A stretch of DNA of 64,000 nucleotides from Candidatus Vecturithrix granuli. Its GTDB lineage: Bacteria > Moduliflexota > Moduliflexia > Moduliflexales > Moduliflexaceae. Location: assembly GCA_000739535.1 (NCBI GenBank), contig DF820478.1:1-64000 (forward strand), written 5' to 3'. Positions 10,317-61,483 of this stretch are shown piece by piece. Numbering within the stretch: the first letter of the stretch is position 1; each line of letters opens with the position of its first letter. The position numbers and the translations under genes were made by a program. The notes beneath the pieces are model-generated. The model had not been told where the DNA came from. It did no database searches and saw nothing but the letters and a program-made list of their open reading frames with translations.

Positions 10317-10365
10317 GGAGTGCGAAAGCTTTGCTTTCGCTGCGAAAGCAAAGCTTTCGCACTCC
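10317..10365. repeat. 49-base perfect palindrome (family A)
   Basis: Two perfect 24-base arms beginning GGAGTGCGAAAGC around a single central T, immediately upstream of the cyclase ribosome-binding site. The same architecture appears at 39070 (degenerate) and at 60499 inside a kinase gene. Confidence 0.85.
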
Positions 10366-11540: not shown

Positions 11541-12431
11541 ATGCCAGTACCACGGGAATTTGAATATGTGAAACCTGCGACGCTGGATAACGCCTTAGCG
11601 TTATTAGCGGAGTATGGGGCTCGGGCGCGGATTCTGGCCGGGGGGACGGATCTGTGCTTGAAAATTAAGGAAGCCTCTGAAACGCCTGAAATGCTCATAG
11701 ACATTAAGGGCCTGCAAGAATTAACTGCGCTGGACTATGCCGAAAACCAACTGCGCATTGGCGCGGCTGTGCCATTTACGCGCCTGATCGAATCGCCGCT
11801 TGTGCAGGAACGTTTCCCGCTGTTGCGCGACGCCTCAGCGACCGTGGGATCGGTCGGTATTCGTAATCGCGCCACGATGGGCGGAAACATCTGTTCCGCA
11901 GTGCCTTCACTGGACAGTGGCCCGGCGCTGTTGGTGCATGAAGCGGTCGCGCACGTCAAAAGCCGGCAAGGTGAACGCAGGGTGCCGCTGTTGGATTGGT
12001 TTGTGGGACCAAAGCGTTCAGCGTTGCAGCCTGATGAAATCTTAACCGCCATTTCAGTGCCAACTCCGCCCAAAAAAGCCGGGGCGTGTTATGTGAAACT
12101 CGGCCGATACGCCGGGGAAGACCTGGCGCAGGCCGGCGTCGGAGTCTTAGCGTTGGAAGGCCATGAGTATCGAATCGCATTTTGCGCGGTCGGACCGGTT
12201 CCGACACGGGCCAGGAAGATTGAAGCCCTGCTCCAGGGAAATAAACTGAGCGAGCCTGTTCTCAAAGAGGCTAAAGCCCTGGTTCCTGAAGAAATCGCAC
12301 CAATTTCCGACATTCGTTCCTCCAAGGAATACCGGACAATGATGATCAAGGTGATGTTAGAACGCGGATTACAGGCGGCTGTGTCGGCGCTGCGCGGCGG
12401 GCGCAGCGAACACGGCGCAATCTGGGTGTAA
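11541..12431 (+). CDS. Molybdenum hydroxylase, FAD-binding medium subunit
   Basis: 296 residues, the usual size of CoxM/XdhB-type subunits. FAD-binding motifs are ILAGGTDL (about 31-38) and NRATMGGNICSA (about 109-120). It passes electrons from the iron-sulfur subunit to an acceptor. The last residues, GGRSEHGAIWV, run to the edge of the following repeat. It forms a three-subunit enzyme with the next two genes. The start has no strong ribosome-binding site because repeat sequence lies directly upstream. Confidence 0.93.
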   Translation: MPVPREFEYVKPATLDNALALLAEYGARARILAGGTDLCLKIKEASETPEMLIDIKGLQELTALDYAENQLRIGAAVPFTRLIESPLVQERFPLLRDASATVGSVGIRNRATMGGNICSAVPSLDSGPALLVHEAVAHVKSRQGERRVPLLDWFVGPKRSALQPDEILTAISVPTPPKKAGACYVKLGRYAGEDLAQAGVGVLALEGHEYRIAFCAVGPVPTRARKIEALLQGNKLSEPVLKEAKALVPEEIAPISDIRSSKEYRTMMIKVMLERGLQAAVSALRGGRSEHGAIWV

Positions 12432-12516
12432 AATGTATGTCGAAACTCCAGTTTCGACACACCTGTCTATTCAGGCAGAGGCGGGTGCGCGAAATTGGAG
12501 TTTCGCGCTACATTTT
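12430..12516. repeat. Double hairpin (family C) inside the hydroxylase operon
   Basis: Outer arms AAAATGTA/TACATTTT enclose two hairpins, GTCGAAACTCCAGTTTCGAC at 12439-12458 and GCGCGAAATTGGAGTTTCGC at 12487-12506. It starts at the stop codon of the FAD subunit and ends 12 bases before the next start. Relatives are at 33404 and 42717. Confidence 0.8.
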
Positions 12517-12528
12517 AGGAGCACACGT

Positions 12529-15415: not shown

Positions 15416-15516
15416 AGTAATTATGAATAAATTTTTGTCAGTTTTGACTGCCCGAGAAACCGGGTTTTTCGAAAAAACCCGGTTTCTGATGGGCAACGAA
15501 ATTATTTATAATTACT
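15416..15516. repeat. AGTAATTAT-arm element with nested ACCGGG hairpin
   Basis: Outer arms AGTAATTATGAATAAATTT (15416-15434) and AAATTATTTATAATTACT (15499-15516) are near complements. Sitting between them is a complete GAAACCGGG hairpin (15456-15486), so one palindrome lies in the loop of another. Confidence 0.75.
15456..15486. terminator. GAAACCGGG-family hairpin after the hydroxylase operon
   Basis: GAAACCGGGTTTTTC and its complement form a 14-15 base stem about 100 bases after the large-subunit stop. It may separate the hydroxylase operon from the permease. Confidence 0.6.
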
Positions 15517-16891: not shown

Positions 16892-16897
16892 CGAACA

Positions 16898-16928
16898 GAA
16901 GCCGGGTTTTTGTCAAAAACCCGGTTTC
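16898..16928. terminator. ACCGGG-family hairpin after the permease
   Basis: GAAGCCGGGTTTTT pairs with AAAAACCCGGTTTC across a 3-base loop, starting 6 bases beyond the permease stop. Probable terminator and member of the dispersed hairpin family. Confidence 0.7.
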
Positions 16929-16972
16929 TTGCAACCCGAGAAAGCGTTTACGGCAAAAGGAGAGTGAAAGAT

Positions 16973-25814: not shown

Positions 25815-26558
25815 TTACGTTTCTTTGCCGAGATAGGCTTCAATCACGGCCGGATCCGCCCGGATTTCACCGGGCAGGCCGCGAGCGATTTCTTCGCCGT
25901 GATCCAGCACCACCAGCCGGTCGCACAGATTCATAACCACATGCATGTTATGCTCTATCAGGATCGGCGTAATGCCGCGATCCCGAATGGCTCGGATCAA
26001 TTGCATAAGCTCCTCGGCTTCTTCGTGGACAAGGCCGGCCGAGGATTCATCTAACAAAATCACTTTCGGTTCAAGCGCCAGAGCTCGTGCGATTTCCAGG
26101 CGTTTTTTCAAGCCTAAGGGCAGATTTTTGGCAAGCTCATGTTTGCGATCCAGCAAGCCCACCCAGTCCAGAATCTCTTCGACTTTGGCGATATGCCGTC
26201 GCTGCGCAAAACGCGAAAACAACGAAAGTCCGGGATAAAAACGATGACCGTGCGCCACCAGTAAATTGCGCAGCACATCCAGGTCCCCAAAGGAGCGCAC
26301 GATCTGAAAAGTGCGGCCAATACCTGCCAGAGCGATTTGGTAGGGTTTCAGATCATCAAGACGAACATCTTGAAAATAAATTTCCCCTGATGTTGGCGGA
26401 AAAATGCCGCTCAGCAGATTGAATAAGGTTGTTTTCCCGGCCCCGTTCGGCCCGATTATTCCTAAAATCTCACCTTCCTGCAACTGAATGGAAATATTCT
26501 GTAAGGCGACCAGTCCGCTAAATTCCTTTGTCAAATTCTTCGTCTCTAACAGGTGCAT
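25815..26558 (-). CDS. livG: Branched-chain amino acid ABC transporter ATP-binding protein LivG
   Basis: 247 residues from [15 protein letters not shown]. Walker [10 protein letters not shown], Walker B KVILLDE and H-loop ILIEHNMH. The signature region reads [15 protein letters not shown], the usual LivG variant. Family length is about 255. The start lies about 12 bases from the repeat block at 26571, and no Shine-Dalgarno is seen. Confidence 0.95.
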
Positions 26559-26570
26559 GATAAGATTTTG

Positions 26571-31601: not shown

Positions 31602-32027
31602 AGGGATCATAGACTCAGGGCAAAAAGCTAAGGGTAAGGTCTGCTCCCCTTATGCATTTTACCGATCGCCTCTTTCTCATATACAGCACTATTCGTGAGG
31701 ATTGACTTGCTCATAGGAATGCCACAGCTCGTCTTTGGCTATCAAAGCCGAGCTGTGACACTCCTGCTCTCTGGAATCAACTCAACTGCACAATGCTGTA
31801 AAAATTGTTATTCATCATCTCCTATTCGACACGATTTTACCACAAAAACAAGAAAAATTCTTTACTTTCCTGAGTTTGTCAAGTTTTCTTTAAACTGTTT
31901 CAGAAATGAGGTGTGAATTCTCGATATTTTCAACGGAATCGGGGGTGTTTTGAACAGAGTATCATCACCTGTTTCCCCACTTCAGATTTCCTGTTCCTAC
32001 TCCTTATTCCCTACTCCCTAATTCGTA
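31602..32027. other. Intergenic region upstream of iolG
   Basis: No gene. Contains a family G palindrome at 31720-31761 and TACTCCTTATTCCCTACTCCC (31999-32019), which matches the outer arm of the repeat island at 11212-11534. The remaining sequence is AT-rich and unrecognised. Confidence 0.5.
31720..31761. repeat. CACAGCTCG palindrome (family G)
   Basis: GCCACAGCTCGTCTTTGGCT pairs with AAAGCCGAGCTGTGAC around a 3-base loop. A relative is at 46741-46785. Confidence 0.65.
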
Positions 32028-33224
32028 TTATAACTGAAGTTTTTTGGATAAGGTAAATCTGAAGATCGATCCTTTACCTACCTCGCTTTCTACCCAGATG
32101 CGACCGCCATGCTTTTCCACAAATTCTTTACACAAAATCAGGCCTAATCCTGTGCCTTTTTCATTGGCAGTTCCAATCCGCCGATATTGCTCATCAATCC
32201 GAAACAGTTTTGCAATATATTGTTCTTTTATACCAATTCCTGTATCAGCGACAGCGATTTCGGCAAATTCATCATTGTGTGCAATTGACACCTCAATGCT
32301 GCCGCCTTCTTTAGTGAATTTCAAGGCATTGGAAATCAGATTCCGAATCACTGTATCGATCATATTGTAATCTGCCAGGATGGGAATATGTTCCTGTACC
32401 AGGCTTGTGAGTCTGATTTGTTTTTGTTCGGCCTGAGGTTTCATCAGGCTAATATTTCTGGCGATGACATGTTCCAGATTGAGTTGCTGCGGTTGATATT
32501 CGATCATGCCGCGCTGGATACGCGACCAGGTGAGCAGATTTTCGAGTAAGGCGAACAGGTTTTTCGCAGCATCTCGCTGCAAAAGAATCATGCGGATCAA
32601 TTCATCACGAGTATAGGTTTCAATATTCTCTATAATGATTTGCGGCAACTCGCGCAGGGCTCCAAGCGGATTACGTAAATCGTGCGCAATAATCGAGAAA
32701 AATTTGTCTTTATCGGCATTCAGGATTTTCAGTTGTGCATTCTTTTCGTCAAGTTCCAGATTTTTCTCATGCAATTGTGCATTGCGACCGGCTAATAAAT
32801 CCGCGTATTTTTCTAAATCTTCATTTTTCTTTTGAAGTTCTTGTTGTAAATTGCGAATCGTCAGGTGGGCATTCACACGGGCTAGCACTTCTTCATGTTG
32901 AAAGGGTTTGGTGATGTAATCAACGCCGCCAACAGCAAATCCTCGAATTTTATCGACCGTATCTGTAAGGGCTGTCATAAAGATCACAGGAATGTCTTTC
33001 GTCTTCTCCTTGTCTTTCAGACGTTGACAGGTCTCGAAACCATCAATGCCCGGCATCATCACATCTAACAGAATCAGATCGGGGCTGACATGTTGCATTT
33101 GTTGCAGAGCCTGTTCGCCATTAGGAGCGATCAACACTTTGTATCCGACATCATGGAGGTAATCCAGAAGCACATTCAAATTCGTTGTATTATCATCTAC
33201 AATTAAGATTGTGGCTTTATTCAT
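32028..33224 (-). CDS. Response regulator-histidine kinase fusion (REC-HK)
   Basis: 398 residues, cytoplasmic. REC domain 1-120 with phospho-acceptor D54 (LILLDVMMPG) and Lys in TKPFQ; coiled coil 122-172; HisKA with H180 in FFSIIAHDLRNPLGAL; HATPase with N box and DTGIGI, GTGLGL. Such fusions receive a phosphate and act as kinases in relays. The ATG overlaps the stop of an upstream PAS fragment (ATGA), with AGGGAGA as ribosome-binding site, so it was once translated with a PAS protein. Confidence 0.92.
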   Translation of the reverse strand: MNKATILIVDDNTTNLNVLLDYLHDVGYKVLIAPNGEQALQQMQHVSPDLILLDVMMPGIDGFETCQRLKDKEKTKDIPVIFMTALTDTVDKIRGFAVGGVDYITKPFQHEEVLARVNAHLTIRNLQQELQKKNEDLEKYADLLAGRNAQLHEKNLELDEKNAQLKILNADKDKFFSIIAHDLRNPLGALRELPQIIIENIETYTRDELIRMILLQRDAAKNLFALLENLLTWSRIQRGMIEYQPQQLNLEHVIARNISLMKPQAEQKQIRLTSLVQEHIPILADYNMIDTVIRNLISNALKFTKEGGSIEVSIAHNDEFAEIAVADTGIGIKEQYIAKLFRIDEQYRRIGTANEKGTGLGLILCKEFVEKHGGRIWVESEVGKGSIFRFTLSKKLQL

Positions 33225-33403: not shown

Positions 33404-33470
33404 ATGTAGCGCGAAACTTCAGTTTCGCACACCATTGATACGGCCGCGAAACTTCAGTTTCGCGGTACAT
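33404..33470. repeat. Double hairpin (family C)
   Basis: ATGTA/TACAT outer ends enclose GCGAAACTTCAGTTTCGC twice (about 33410-33428 and 33443-33464). It interrupts the PAS remnant. Confidence 0.75.
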
Positions 33471-39069: not shown

Positions 39070-39117
39070 GGAGTGCAAAAGCTCTGCTTTTGCCATGAAG
39101 CATGGCTTTTGCACTCC
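39070..39117. repeat. 48-base family A palindrome, degenerate copy
   Basis: GGAGTGCAAAAGCTCTGCTT at the left and GGCTTTTGCACTCC at the right, with several mismatches near the centre. It lies between the methyltransferase and iolC, just upstream of the iolC ribosome-binding site, as the 10317 copy does for the cyclase gene. Confidence 0.8.
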
Positions 39118-42716: not shown

Positions 42717-42774
42717 AATGTAGGTCGAAATTGTATTTCGACCAGCACAACGAAATACAATTTCGTTGTACAAT
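42717..42774. repeat. Double hairpin (family C) between the mutase paralogues
   Basis: AATGTA/TACAAT outer ends enclose GGTCGAAATTGTATTTCGACC and CAACGAAATACAATTTCGTTG hairpins. It lies within the ribosome-binding region of glmM. Confidence 0.75.
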
Positions 42775-57286: not shown

Positions 57287-57355
57287 TTTTTCAAGTGTTG
57301 TCTGACTGACGCCAGAGTGCAAACGTCAGATTGCCAACAGCCTGAAAGTGGGACT

Positions 57356-60300
57356 ATGAACATATCAAATTTATTGGGGTCAATACTGGCAGCATATAAA
57401 TTTATGAAAAGATATCCCATTATTCTTACGCATAGAATGGCTTCTATTATCGTCATGCTTTTGCTCTTTCCCTCAGCGATTCAAGCCGGGGAACCCGAGA
57501 TGAAATTCGATCATGTGTTGAATTTGGGGTCGCGCCACACCCAGGTAATGCTTCAAGATCGAGAAGGGTTTCTGTGGTTTGGCTCCGCAGGCGGGGGAGT
57601 CTTTCGCTATGATGCGTATGAGTTGAAACGCTATGGCAGCGGGCAGGATTTGCTTTCGAATGGATTTGTGTATGGTCTTGTTGAAGATGCCCAAGAACCT
57701 TTCGTGCTATGGATCGGCACCAAAGAAGGATTGAACTGGTTTGATCGCAAAACAGGCATATTTACGTATTATAAACATCAACCTGGCAATCCGGCAAGCT
57801 TGAGTCATAATGCGATTAATGATATAGTGCAGGATAGCCGTGATCCACACATTCTCTGGATTGGAACCGAGGGAGGGTTGAACAAATTTGATACCCGGAC
57901 AGAAATTTTTATCTCTTACCATCATGACCCACAAAATGACCAGAGCCTTAGTCATAATGCGGTCTGGAGAATTCTTCAGGATCGTAAAAATCCTGATATT
58001 CTCTGGTTAGGAACCTGGGGCGGCGGGTTGAACAAATTTGATACACGCACGGAACGCTTTATCCACTATCGTCATAATCCTGAAGATGAGACAAGCCTTG
58101 GGGCGTCGAATGAGATTATTGACGCTCTTGCTCAGGATAAGGATGATCCTGACATCCTCTGGATTGGCTGGCATGAAGGACTTGACCAATTTGACACGCG
58201 CTCCGAAACTTTTACGCATTATCGGCATGATCCGCACAATCCAAAGAGTCTGCCGGAAGGACTTGTGGCGTTAATTTATGATGATGGCTATGGACGCCTC
58301 TGGTTAGGAGGCTGGGAGGATGATAATGGCTTAACGATTTTTGACAAGCAGACGCATACCGGCACCAATTATCGCCATGATCCCCACAATCCCCATAGCC
58401 TCAGCGATAATTTAGTGGTTGATGTGTACGAGGATCGCTCCGGAATCTTCTGGATTACGATGGCCTCAGGCAAAGTTGATAAATATGATCCCTGGAATCA
58501 GAATTTTACGACCTATGCCTATGATCAGCAAAATCCGTCTAGTTTGAGTCATAACACGATCACGGCGTTGTATGAAGATCGACAGGGAACCGTGTGGGTG
58601 GGAACACTCTCCGGGTTGAATCGGTTTGATCCTAATACCGACACCTTTACGCGTTATACGAAAACCCCGGAAACTCCGGATTCACTTGATAACAATCGCA
58701 TTCAAACTATTTTCGAAGATCACTCTGGGCATTTTTGGGTCTCTTTTTTTCCTGGTTCCCTTGTAGAATTTGACAGACAGACAGAGAAGGTCATTCGTCG
58801 CTATACTAATGCCGAAGTGTTTACCAGTATAATTGATGATCCTCATGATCCTGAAAATCTTTGGATCGGGATGCGTCCGCAAGGGTTAGCCCGTTTTCAT
58901 AAACCAACAGAAACCTTTACAGTGTACGATCCTTCGCCACAAGATTCCCAAGATGGCGTGACTTATGGACCCATTTACAAAATTCTCCATGATCGAGATG
59001 ATGAGGTGATCTGGCTTGGCGGCTGGGAAGGGGGAGGATTGCGCAAATTTGAGAAACAGACACAGACATTTACCACATATATCGCTGATCCTCAGAAACC
59101 AACGAGCCTTACGGCCAATTCCATTGCCGCATTGTATCAGGATAGGCAGGGTAGGCTCTGGATCGGAACCCTGGGAGGAGGATTGTGTACCTTTCATAAA
59201 GAGAGCGAAACCTTTACGTGTTATGCTTCAAATCAGAAAATACCAACAAATATCAATGGGATCCTGGAAGATGAGGAGGCGAATCTCTGGTTAAGTACGG
59301 ATCTGGGGATTGTGAAATTCAACCCGAGCACAGAAACAGTCGAAAAGCATTATCGCCAAAGCGATGGTTTGCAGGGCGATATGTTCTTTCGAGACAGCAC
59401 TTGCAAGACATCTACCGGAGAATTGTGGTTTGGCGGAATGAATGGCGTGAACCGGTTTCATCCGAAGCACCTAGTAGAAAATCCGCATGTTCCCCCTGTA
59501 GTTCTCACTTCGCTGGCCCAGGCAGGAGAGCACATCTGCCCTGTGGCCTGCGAGTCCACCCCAGCGATCTCCCTGGACTGGCGGCACAATTTTTTTGAAT
59601 TTGAGTTTGTCGCGCTTAACTATACTCGTCCCCAAAACAACCAGTATGCCTATATGTTGGAGGGGGTGGATCAGGAGTGGTTCTATTCCGGTCAAAAACG
59701 CTTCGGACGTTATACCAATCTTGCGCCAGGTACATATACCCTCAAGCTTAAAGCGGCCAATAACAATGGCGTCTGGAATGAACAGGGTACCTCTGTGCAG
59801 ATTACCATTATTCCTCCCTTTTGGGCCACCTGGTGGTTTCGCAGTCTATTGGGCTTCAGCATAGTGGGATTGGTGTTTGGCGGCTTTTGGCTGCGTATCA
59901 AAACCATTGAAAAGCAGAAGCGACTCTTAGCCGCGCAAGTTGCTGAACGTACAAAAGCCCTGTCAGAGCGAACCGATGAATTAGCGCATTCAAATACGGA
60001 ACTTCAAAAAGCCAAAGAACAAGCAGAAGTCGCAAACAAGGCCAAGAGTACCTTTCTGGCAAACATGAGTCATGAACTGCGCACGCCGCTCAATGCCATT
60101 CTGGGGTTTTCACAACTCATGCAGCATGATCCGGCGTTATCTTCAGAACATCGAAACGATCTCAAGATCATTGTCCGCAATGGCGACCACCTGCTGACCT
60201 TGATCAATCAACTGCTGGATATCTCGAAAATTGAAGCCGGCCGCATGACCGTGAATACAACGAACTTTGATATGTATACGCTGTTAGATGAAACCGAAAA

Positions 60301-61483
60301 CATGTTTCGATTGCTAGCCAGAGAAAAACAGATCCATCTTGTGTTTGAAAGGACTCCGGATCTGCCCCGATATATCTGTACCGATGTGGTCAAACTCCGT
60401 CAAATCCTGTTCAATTTGCTCAATAACGCCATCAAATTTACGAAAGAAGGGGGCGTGGCCGTGAGAATAAGAAGTAAAGAAGTCACAGATACAGATCTGG
60501 AGTGCAAAAGCTCTGCTTTTGCAGCAAAAGCAGAGCTTTTGCACTCCGATTCCTTACTCCATCTTGAAATTGAAGATACGGGACCTGGCATCACTCCGCA
60601 AGAGTTAGAATACGTTTTTCAGGCATTCACCCAGACAGAAGCCGGACGGAAGACTCAGGAAGGAACAGGGTTAGGATTAGCAATCAGCCGTAATTTTGTC
60701 GAATTATTAGGAGGGGAGTTACATGTCCAAAGCGAAGTCGGACGCGGAAGTCTTTTTAGCTTGACGATTCCGGTGCAGCGGGTGCATGCTTCTGACCTTG
60801 CAGCAAAATCTCCCACGCGCCGGGTCATCGGACTGGTGTCTGGCCAACCGCATTATCGGATTCTGGTGGTTGATGATAAACAGGATAACCGCTATTTGTT
60901 AATGCGCTTATTGACGCCATTGGGTTTTGATGTACGCGAGGCCAATAATGGCCAGGAAGCCATTACCATCTGGCAAGAATGGCAGCCGAATCTGATCTGG
61001 ATGGATATGCGTATGCCCGTGTTAGATGGCTACAAAGCCACGGAACAGATCAAGGCCACGATGCAAGGTCAGGCCACGGCGATTATTGCCCTCACAGCGA
61101 GCGCCTTTGAAGAAGAGAAAGCCGTGGTGCTCTCGGCCGGCTGCGACGATTTTCTGCGAAAACCGTTTAAAGAAACTGAAATTTTTGACTTGATGCAGAA
61201 ACATTTAGGCGTACAGTATCTCTATAAGGACATGCAGCCCGGCGAAGACGTTGGGGAAGAGAAGCCTTTATTCTCGACGATTGATGTGGCTGCCCTGACT
61301 ACGATACCGACGGAATTACGACAGCGACTCGAACATAGCGTATTAATAGCTGACGTTTCCGGAATTACGGAAATGATCCAGGAAATTTTTGCCTATGATG
61401 CCACACTCGGACAAACGCTGGAGCATCTGGCCGAAGATTTTAAATACAGCCATATCCTGGAAGCCTTGCAAAAGATCACCTAA
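57356..61483 (+). CDS. One-protein two-component hybrid with beta-propeller sensor
   Basis: About 1375 residues. A signal segment ([17 protein letters not shown]) leads into two periplasmic seven-bladed propellers of Reg_prop repeats (many LWIGTxGGLNKFD units), then a Y_Y_Y domain ([16 protein letters not shown]), a membrane helix ([18 protein letters not shown]), HisKA ([18 protein letters not shown]), HATPase, REC ([13 protein letters not shown]) and a helical tail. Members from Bacteroidetes sense polysaccharides and end in an AraC domain; this one has no DNA-binding domain. Residues about 1048-1065 are a translated family A palindrome. Start is uncertain: GTG 57317 or ATG 57404 are alternatives. 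Confidence 0.92.
60499..60547. repeat. 49-base perfect palindrome (family A) inside the hybrid kinase gene
   Basis: Two perfect 24-base arms (GGAGTGCAAAAGCTCTGC...) around one A. Same design as the intergenic copy at 10317. It is translated in frame in the HATPase loop ([16 protein letters not shown]). GAT occurs two bases before it and directly after it, so a 54-base, 18-codon insertion with a 3-base target repeat is possible. Confidence 0.9.

Follow-up and report, generated by a model that had tools for sequence, protein, structure and literature searches.

The 64,000-nt stretch of the Candidatus Vecturithrix granuli genome analysed here (hereafter the window) contains a gene for a hybrid histidine kinase in which a perfect palindrome is translated. 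What kind of element is this palindrome, how did it come to lie in a coding frame, and does the kinase make use of it? The initial annotation had described a perfect 49-base palindrome with 24-base arms around one base in the coding frame of the HATPase domain, and both a re-reading of the sequence and a check of the arms agree with this description.

Results

The palindrome consists of two GGAG-tagged REPs

The palindrome at 60499-60547 has the layout GGAGTGCAAAAGCTCTGCTTTTGC-A-GCAAAAGCAGAGCTTTTGCACTCC, with 24-bp arms that are 100% complementary and a 1-nt spacer. Perfect arms of this length are expected by chance ~2e-10 times per random 64-kb window. As DNA, a single arm folds into GGAGT followed by an 8-bp hairpin with a three-base loop. 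Among 168 half-REPs from ~2.1 Mb of the genome, the GGAGT tag is present in 160, and each stem position is paired in 92-100%. Stem pair 2 alternates between C-G and T-A, and stem pair 3 among G-C, C-G and A-T, with both sides changing together. The full-length elements mostly have different stems in their two halves (the commonest combination, GCGA with GTCA, occurs in 29 elements), and their small hairpins are maintained even where the outer palindrome has mismatches, as it often does. It is therefore the 24-nt REP hairpin that is conserved as a unit, and the 49-mer is made up of two such REPs in inverted orientation, an arrangement known as a REPIN. The initial annotation implicitly took the 49-mer as the evolving unit, which does not agree with the differing stems in most full-length copies. 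The two REPs of the kinase copy are identical, which gives it the appearance of a single perfect 49-bp palindrome. The tag of this family is GGAG and not the canonical GTAG or GT[A/G]G, and we file it as a GGAG-tagged variant and not as a GTAG REP. The features of the window are summarized in Table 1.

Table 1 Features of the kinase locus and related elements in the window
Feature	Position	Strand	Remarks
REPIN, two inverted GGAG-tagged REPs with a 1-nt centre	60499..60547		Translated in frame, 18-residue peptide
REP 1, GGAGT + 8-bp stem GCAAAAGC/GCTTTTGC + TCT loop	60499..60522	+	
REP 2, inverted copy	60524..60547	-	
CT dinucleotide directly 5' of the GGAG tag	60497..60498	+	Fits the TnpA-REP cleavage class C[A/C/T] (PMC8266576)
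Host gene, hybrid histidine kinase, 1388 aa (Reg_prop propeller, Y_Y_Y, HisKA, HATPase_c, receiver)	57317..61483	+	
HATPase_c domain	60383..60778	+	Pfam match, residues 1023-1154; insert located in the variable loop that precedes the DTGPG motif
Intergenic perfect REPIN, GGAG family	10317..10365		Same layout as the kinase copy
Degenerate 48-bp REPIN, GGAG family, 90% complementary arms	39070..39117		Between or at the edge of two minus-strand genes
Probable fourth relative, strongly degenerate, 49 bp (GGAATGCCACAGC ... GTGACACTCC)	31716..31764		From the palindrome-pair listing of the window

The family is abundant in one genome and scattered across phyla

The genome (8.38 Mb, 21 contigs) contains 199 and 207 half-site matches; reversed control patterns gave 0. 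With up to three mismatches to the CR-stem form allowed, 36 full 49-mers are present. The genome-wide search for further copies, genes included, that the initial annotation proposed gave 112 inverted dimers under a looser pattern, some of them translated in genes; the same dimer pattern had no match in any of 384 other genomes searched. The modal dimer length is 49 bp (54 of 77 non-MITE elements). Of the two further palindromes that had been reported in the window, an intergenic one of the same layout at 10317 and a degenerate one at 39070, both were found, the former being perfect. Their description as having largely the same sequence was, if anything, too weak, as the three copies belong to one REP family and vary mainly at two stem pairs. 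The element at 31716 has the appearance of an ancient GGAGTG-family copy.

Other repeats were also observed. Contig C3 carries a tandem array of 94-bp units with one REPIN per unit (26066-26567, L003-L007). Another palindromic family (TGTAGCGCGAAACTTCAGTTTCGC...) has several copies in the window (12429-12517, 33404-33470, and 42719-42772), and a short palindrome, AGAAACCGGGTTTTT, lies at several gene ends (2132-2164, 15455-15487, and 16897-16929) and may be terminator-like or another REP class.

Half-site matches in GTDB contigs include, among those listed, Desulfobacteraceae, Zixibacteria, Anaerolineales and other Chloroflexi, Armatimonadetes, Acidobacteria, Thermoanaerobaculia, and HR30. Most of these matches are single REPs, or dimers that differ in length. 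A codon-scored search for in-gene copies in other phyla gave 0 of 109, and looser ORFs looked spurious.

GGAG-tagged REPs are associated with RAYT transposases

The genome has 12 Y1-transposase matches. A 181-aa RAYT is encoded at contig C18 825665-826207 (locus L118 10666-11208) and scores 94.5 bits with NF047646 (NCBIfam, REP-associated tyrosine transposase), whose curated cut-off is 80 bits. This gene is bracketed by inverted REPs, with one orientation directly upstream (5') and the opposite orientation directly downstream (3'). The dimers in its neighborhood are mostly 57 bp and not 49 bp; therefore, the C18 RAYT may not be the spreader of the 49-bp form.

A tblastn search for RAYTs within the REP-bearing loci gave nothing because these loci are short, and the search was replaced by a whole-genome profile search. 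In the 14 REP-bearing genomes covered, RAYT matches were present in 13 and above the cut-off in 11. GGAGTGC hairpins bracket or adjoin RAYTs in loci from Zixibacteria (two genomes), HR30, Chloroflexi, Desulfobacteraceae, and Thermoanaerobaculia, and three RAYTs of Desulfonema magnum have them in modified form. GGAGTGC repeats thus flank RAYTs in at least five unrelated genomes. At one D. magnum locus (L298 900-2500), tandem GGAGTGCAAAAATTTTATTTTTGCAC hairpins flank the RAYT on both sides and represent a diverged form within the GGAG class. In the RAYT tree, the RAYT of the window genome clades with Desulfobacterota RAYTs carrying GGAGTGC repeats (support 99/100); a single clade of all GGAG-linked RAYTs was not recovered.

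In vitro, TnpA-REP cuts next to CT or CA beside the REP, with the tag guiding the choice, and a tag change from GTAG to GTGG redirects cleavage to CC (PMC8266576). In the present family, the dinucleotide before GGAG belongs to the C[A/C/T] class on 93 of the 138 sides of elements (67%), compared with 29% for GGAG generally (p 1.6e-20). CC is the commonest dinucleotide before the tag, as G at tag position 2 would predict. This enrichment, seen in the flanks only, is an indirect sign of RAYT action. On these sequence features, the palindrome was probably moved by a RAYT.

Copies in genes are rare and concentrated in a DISARM operon

Gene statistics cover C18, 700 kb of C19 (most of that contig), and the window. 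Of 88 element clusters in this DNA, which is ~79% coding, 77 lie outside called genes and 11 inside (avoidance p 1.6e-40). Eight of the 11 in-gene clusters belong to one DISARM operon (helicase, DrmD, and DrmMI), and the RAYT described above lies between two genes of the same operon (C18 820274-833961, L118 5275-18962; ~8 in-frame REP clusters). Within the sampled DNA, 57-bp REPINs with a GAGTCACGCGC-type spacer occur only at this operon, which suggests local hopping. The helicase, DrmD, and DrmMI align end to end with homologs from Caballeronia and Paraburkholderia plasmids without the insertions, and the DISARM operons of those bacteria have no RAYT. A targeted further sample added translated copies in a NACHT protein, a DUF1156 methylase, a polyketide-type protein, and a paralogous kinase. 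In this small sample, the in-gene copies appear to lean towards defence and DNA-processing genes.

Where the native loop has a stable length, proteins gain fewer residues than the element encodes: the DUF1156 methylase is 10 residues longer than homologs of the same loop form, and the DISARM sites gain 11 to 20 residues. Adding just 49 bp would put the downstream codons out of frame; insertion must therefore have been accompanied by an adjustment of at least 1 nt or by the loss of some native sequence. We also considered a rule by which insertion always adds +45 nt (49 minus a pre-existing GGAG) or +51 nt, and hence always stays in frame. This rule is not supported by the gains of 10 and 11-20 residues in comparison with homologs, nor by the lengths of some in-gene clusters, which are not equal to 1 mod 3.

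The view of the initial annotation that a mobile palindrome can enter genes and add a peptide is borne out by a high-copy, dispersed element that is translated in frame and whose peptide is missing from homologous kinases, from which we infer movement. Its comparison with Rickettsia palindromic elements fares less well. A selfish element specialized for in-frame insertion into genes, belonging or directly akin to the rickettsial ones, would produce the same outcome, namely in-frame peptides in unrelated proteins with the used frames open. However, most copies here avoid genes, and the family has a GGAG tag and a RAYT linkage, whereas rickettsial repeats are CGTC-tagged and have no linked transposase (PMC3733652). 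We regard such kinship as very unlikely; the likeness is one of effect only.

Empty sites and MITE carriers

A search with joined flanks within 2.1 Mb gave no clean case of an empty site. Pairs of otherwise identical DNA with and without the element were not found either, and the other flank matches are MITE relatives and not empty alleles. The insertion itself and its exact ends are therefore putative.

Three MITE families (TTAGAAGCTGTTTTAAAAGT..., GGGCTGTTAAGTTCT..., and GGTTATGGACA...) carry the REPIN in their centre, so that many copies are not independent. A MITE of ~130 bp with a central REPIN (ends TTAGAAGCTGTTTTAAAAGT / ACTTTTAAAACAGCTTCTAA) is found at C18 64090, C19 69400, C6 72920, and other sites. 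REPIN-free MITE copies were searched for, and none was found. Such carriers raise the question of whether the kinase copy was delivered within a longer DDE-transposase MITE having the REPIN at its centre. Several MITE families of this genome do carry it, the translated stretch of a gene at C19 256138 includes a REPIN-bearing MITE read through in frame, and a gene at C16 362964 encodes similar MITE-flank peptides. Around the kinase copy, however, neither terminal inverted repeats nor MITE ends were found, and on both sides the kinase coding sequence runs right up to the REPIN. Delivery by a MITE is thus highly improbable for this copy.

The kinase copy lies in a length-variable loop

In the phase xxG-GAG, the kinase-copy REPIN is stop-free and encodes ~16 residues. 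The kinase ORF (57317-61483) is intact through all domains on either side of the palindrome. This intactness speaks against an assembly or binning artefact and against a pseudogene, as does the fact that the same element recurs in diverse surroundings across many of the bin's contigs. Although the contamination of the bin is estimated at 10.75% and long palindromes can be misassembled, we consider an artefact or a pseudogene extremely improbable.

Between the A(I/L)KFT and DTGxG motifs, the window kinase has 54 residues and the kinase at 32028 has ~32, a difference of ~22. The initial annotation had stated that the peptide is missing from the latter kinase, with ~15 residues against ~40; the direction is right, and the figures were only approximate. 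Across homologous kinases, the same span ranges from ~32 to ~72 residues. An exact 18-residue insertion, as had been proposed, is not supported. The gap is 18 residues relative to a solved kinase structure (7z8n) and 11-12 relative to the closest loop-comparable paralogs, which have 42-43 residues in the span, and at other in-gene sites it is smaller than the element. The best kinase match in the nearest relative is ~48% identical, and the genome of that relative holds no REPIN copy.

Two other kinases of the genome have repeats in this loop. A paralog at C21 424922-426394 (~54% identical) has a degenerate 50-bp REPIN (QECKSEAFTHQSSALTLF) translated in the same HATPase loop (L245 ~1861-1910), and a third kinase, at C17 328752, has a translated repeat of another family there (L248 2025-2150). 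This second family (CCCTCACCCCCGGCCCCTCTCCC...) is translated both in the C17 kinase loop and in the DISARM helicase (L118 6292-6360).

The insert could have been kept for a function, with a 23-bp mRNA hairpin throttling expression or the peptide tuning the kinase, in which case recurrent repeat insertion into the loop would be selected. The predicted RNA hairpin of the kinase copy (-39.4 kcal/mol) and the presence of repeats in the same loop of the C21 and C17 kinases are in line with this idea. However, the loop is length-variable in all homologs, and tolerance therefore explains the recurrence; moreover, in-gene copies occur in unrelated proteins. A selected role is quite unlikely, and the peptide is most likely tolerated baggage and not a selected function.

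Discussion

We conclude that the kinase palindrome is very probably a RAYT-type REPIN tolerated in a permissive loop. REPINs mobilized by RAYTs have been described previously (Bertels and Rainey 2011, PMC3116915; Nunvar 2010, PMC2817692). The present family shares with them a high-copy, mostly extragenic hairpin made of an inverted REP doublet, a RAYT bracketed by inverted REPs, and a cleavage dinucleotide beside the REP. Unlike those systems, which have a GTAG/GTGG tag, it has a GGAG(T) tag and a 1-nt spacer giving a near-perfect 49-bp palindrome, and it is partly carried as MITE cargo. The REP tags described in a 2013 survey and in a later phylogenomic study are GTAG, CGTC, or GT[A/G]G (PMC3733652, PMC6006769), and neither the present REP sequence nor its peptide had a match in the REP/RAYT literature examined.

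REPs inside genes are also known. Di Nocera et al. (2013, PMC3733652) reported intragenic GTAG and CGTC REPs as in-frame monomers, dimers, and clusters, often in DNA-processing genes, in O. terrae, Thauera, and R. conorii; the in-frame dimers or groups encode 20-30 residues, and the clusters up to 82. The present family differs from these in its GGAG tag and in that the RAYT itself lies inside a DISARM operon whose genes carry in-frame clusters. The same survey assigned RPE-4 and RPE-6 to CGTC-tagged repeats without a linked transposase. Rickettsia palindromic elements likewise are palindromic repeats in frame in unrelated proteins; however, they are CGTC-tagged or longer and have no linked transposase, the present family avoids genes, and sequence kinship is not supported. 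Intragenic REPs are thus already published, and the GGAG tag and the DISARM case appear to be new. The family is of a known kind, from which it departs in its GGAG tag, its 1-nt spacer, its spread across phyla, and a REPtron located within a DISARM operon.

We propose the following course of events. A RAYT would recognize single-stranded REP hairpins, cut next to C[A/C/T], and move the dimer as a non-autonomous element, and some copies may later spread as MITE cargo. Insertions into genes would normally be lost. The few in-gene copies that survive would be those that lie in a tolerant loop and whose net length and phase leave the reading frame uninterrupted. The kinase copy would be such a survivor, in a loop whose length already varied widely among homologs. 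The shortfall in net gain at in-gene sites of stable loop length would mean either that insertion, or a later event, cost the protein some native residues, or that survival was limited to insertions accompanied by a compensating deletion. A bolder proposal is that a GGAG REP-RAYT lineage over several phyla acts as a recurrent donor of loop peptides. Its copies would hop locally around the RAYT, reaching the DISARM operon as well as one and the same HATPase loop in several kinases, and would remodel functional proteins rather than being merely tolerated; we consider this unlikely.

With these findings, the REP-RAYT systems, whose tags are GTAG or GTGG in the literature examined, gain a further class that is tagged with GGAG and has its own transposases in several phyla. 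In one genome, the same element can be observed between genes, within MITEs, and as a translated part of intact enzymes. The DISARM operon stands out most, with its own RAYT and ~8 in-frame REP clusters in three genes that still align end to end with their Caballeronia homologs. The survival, and perhaps the use, of inserted selfish DNA by proteins thereby becomes directly testable.
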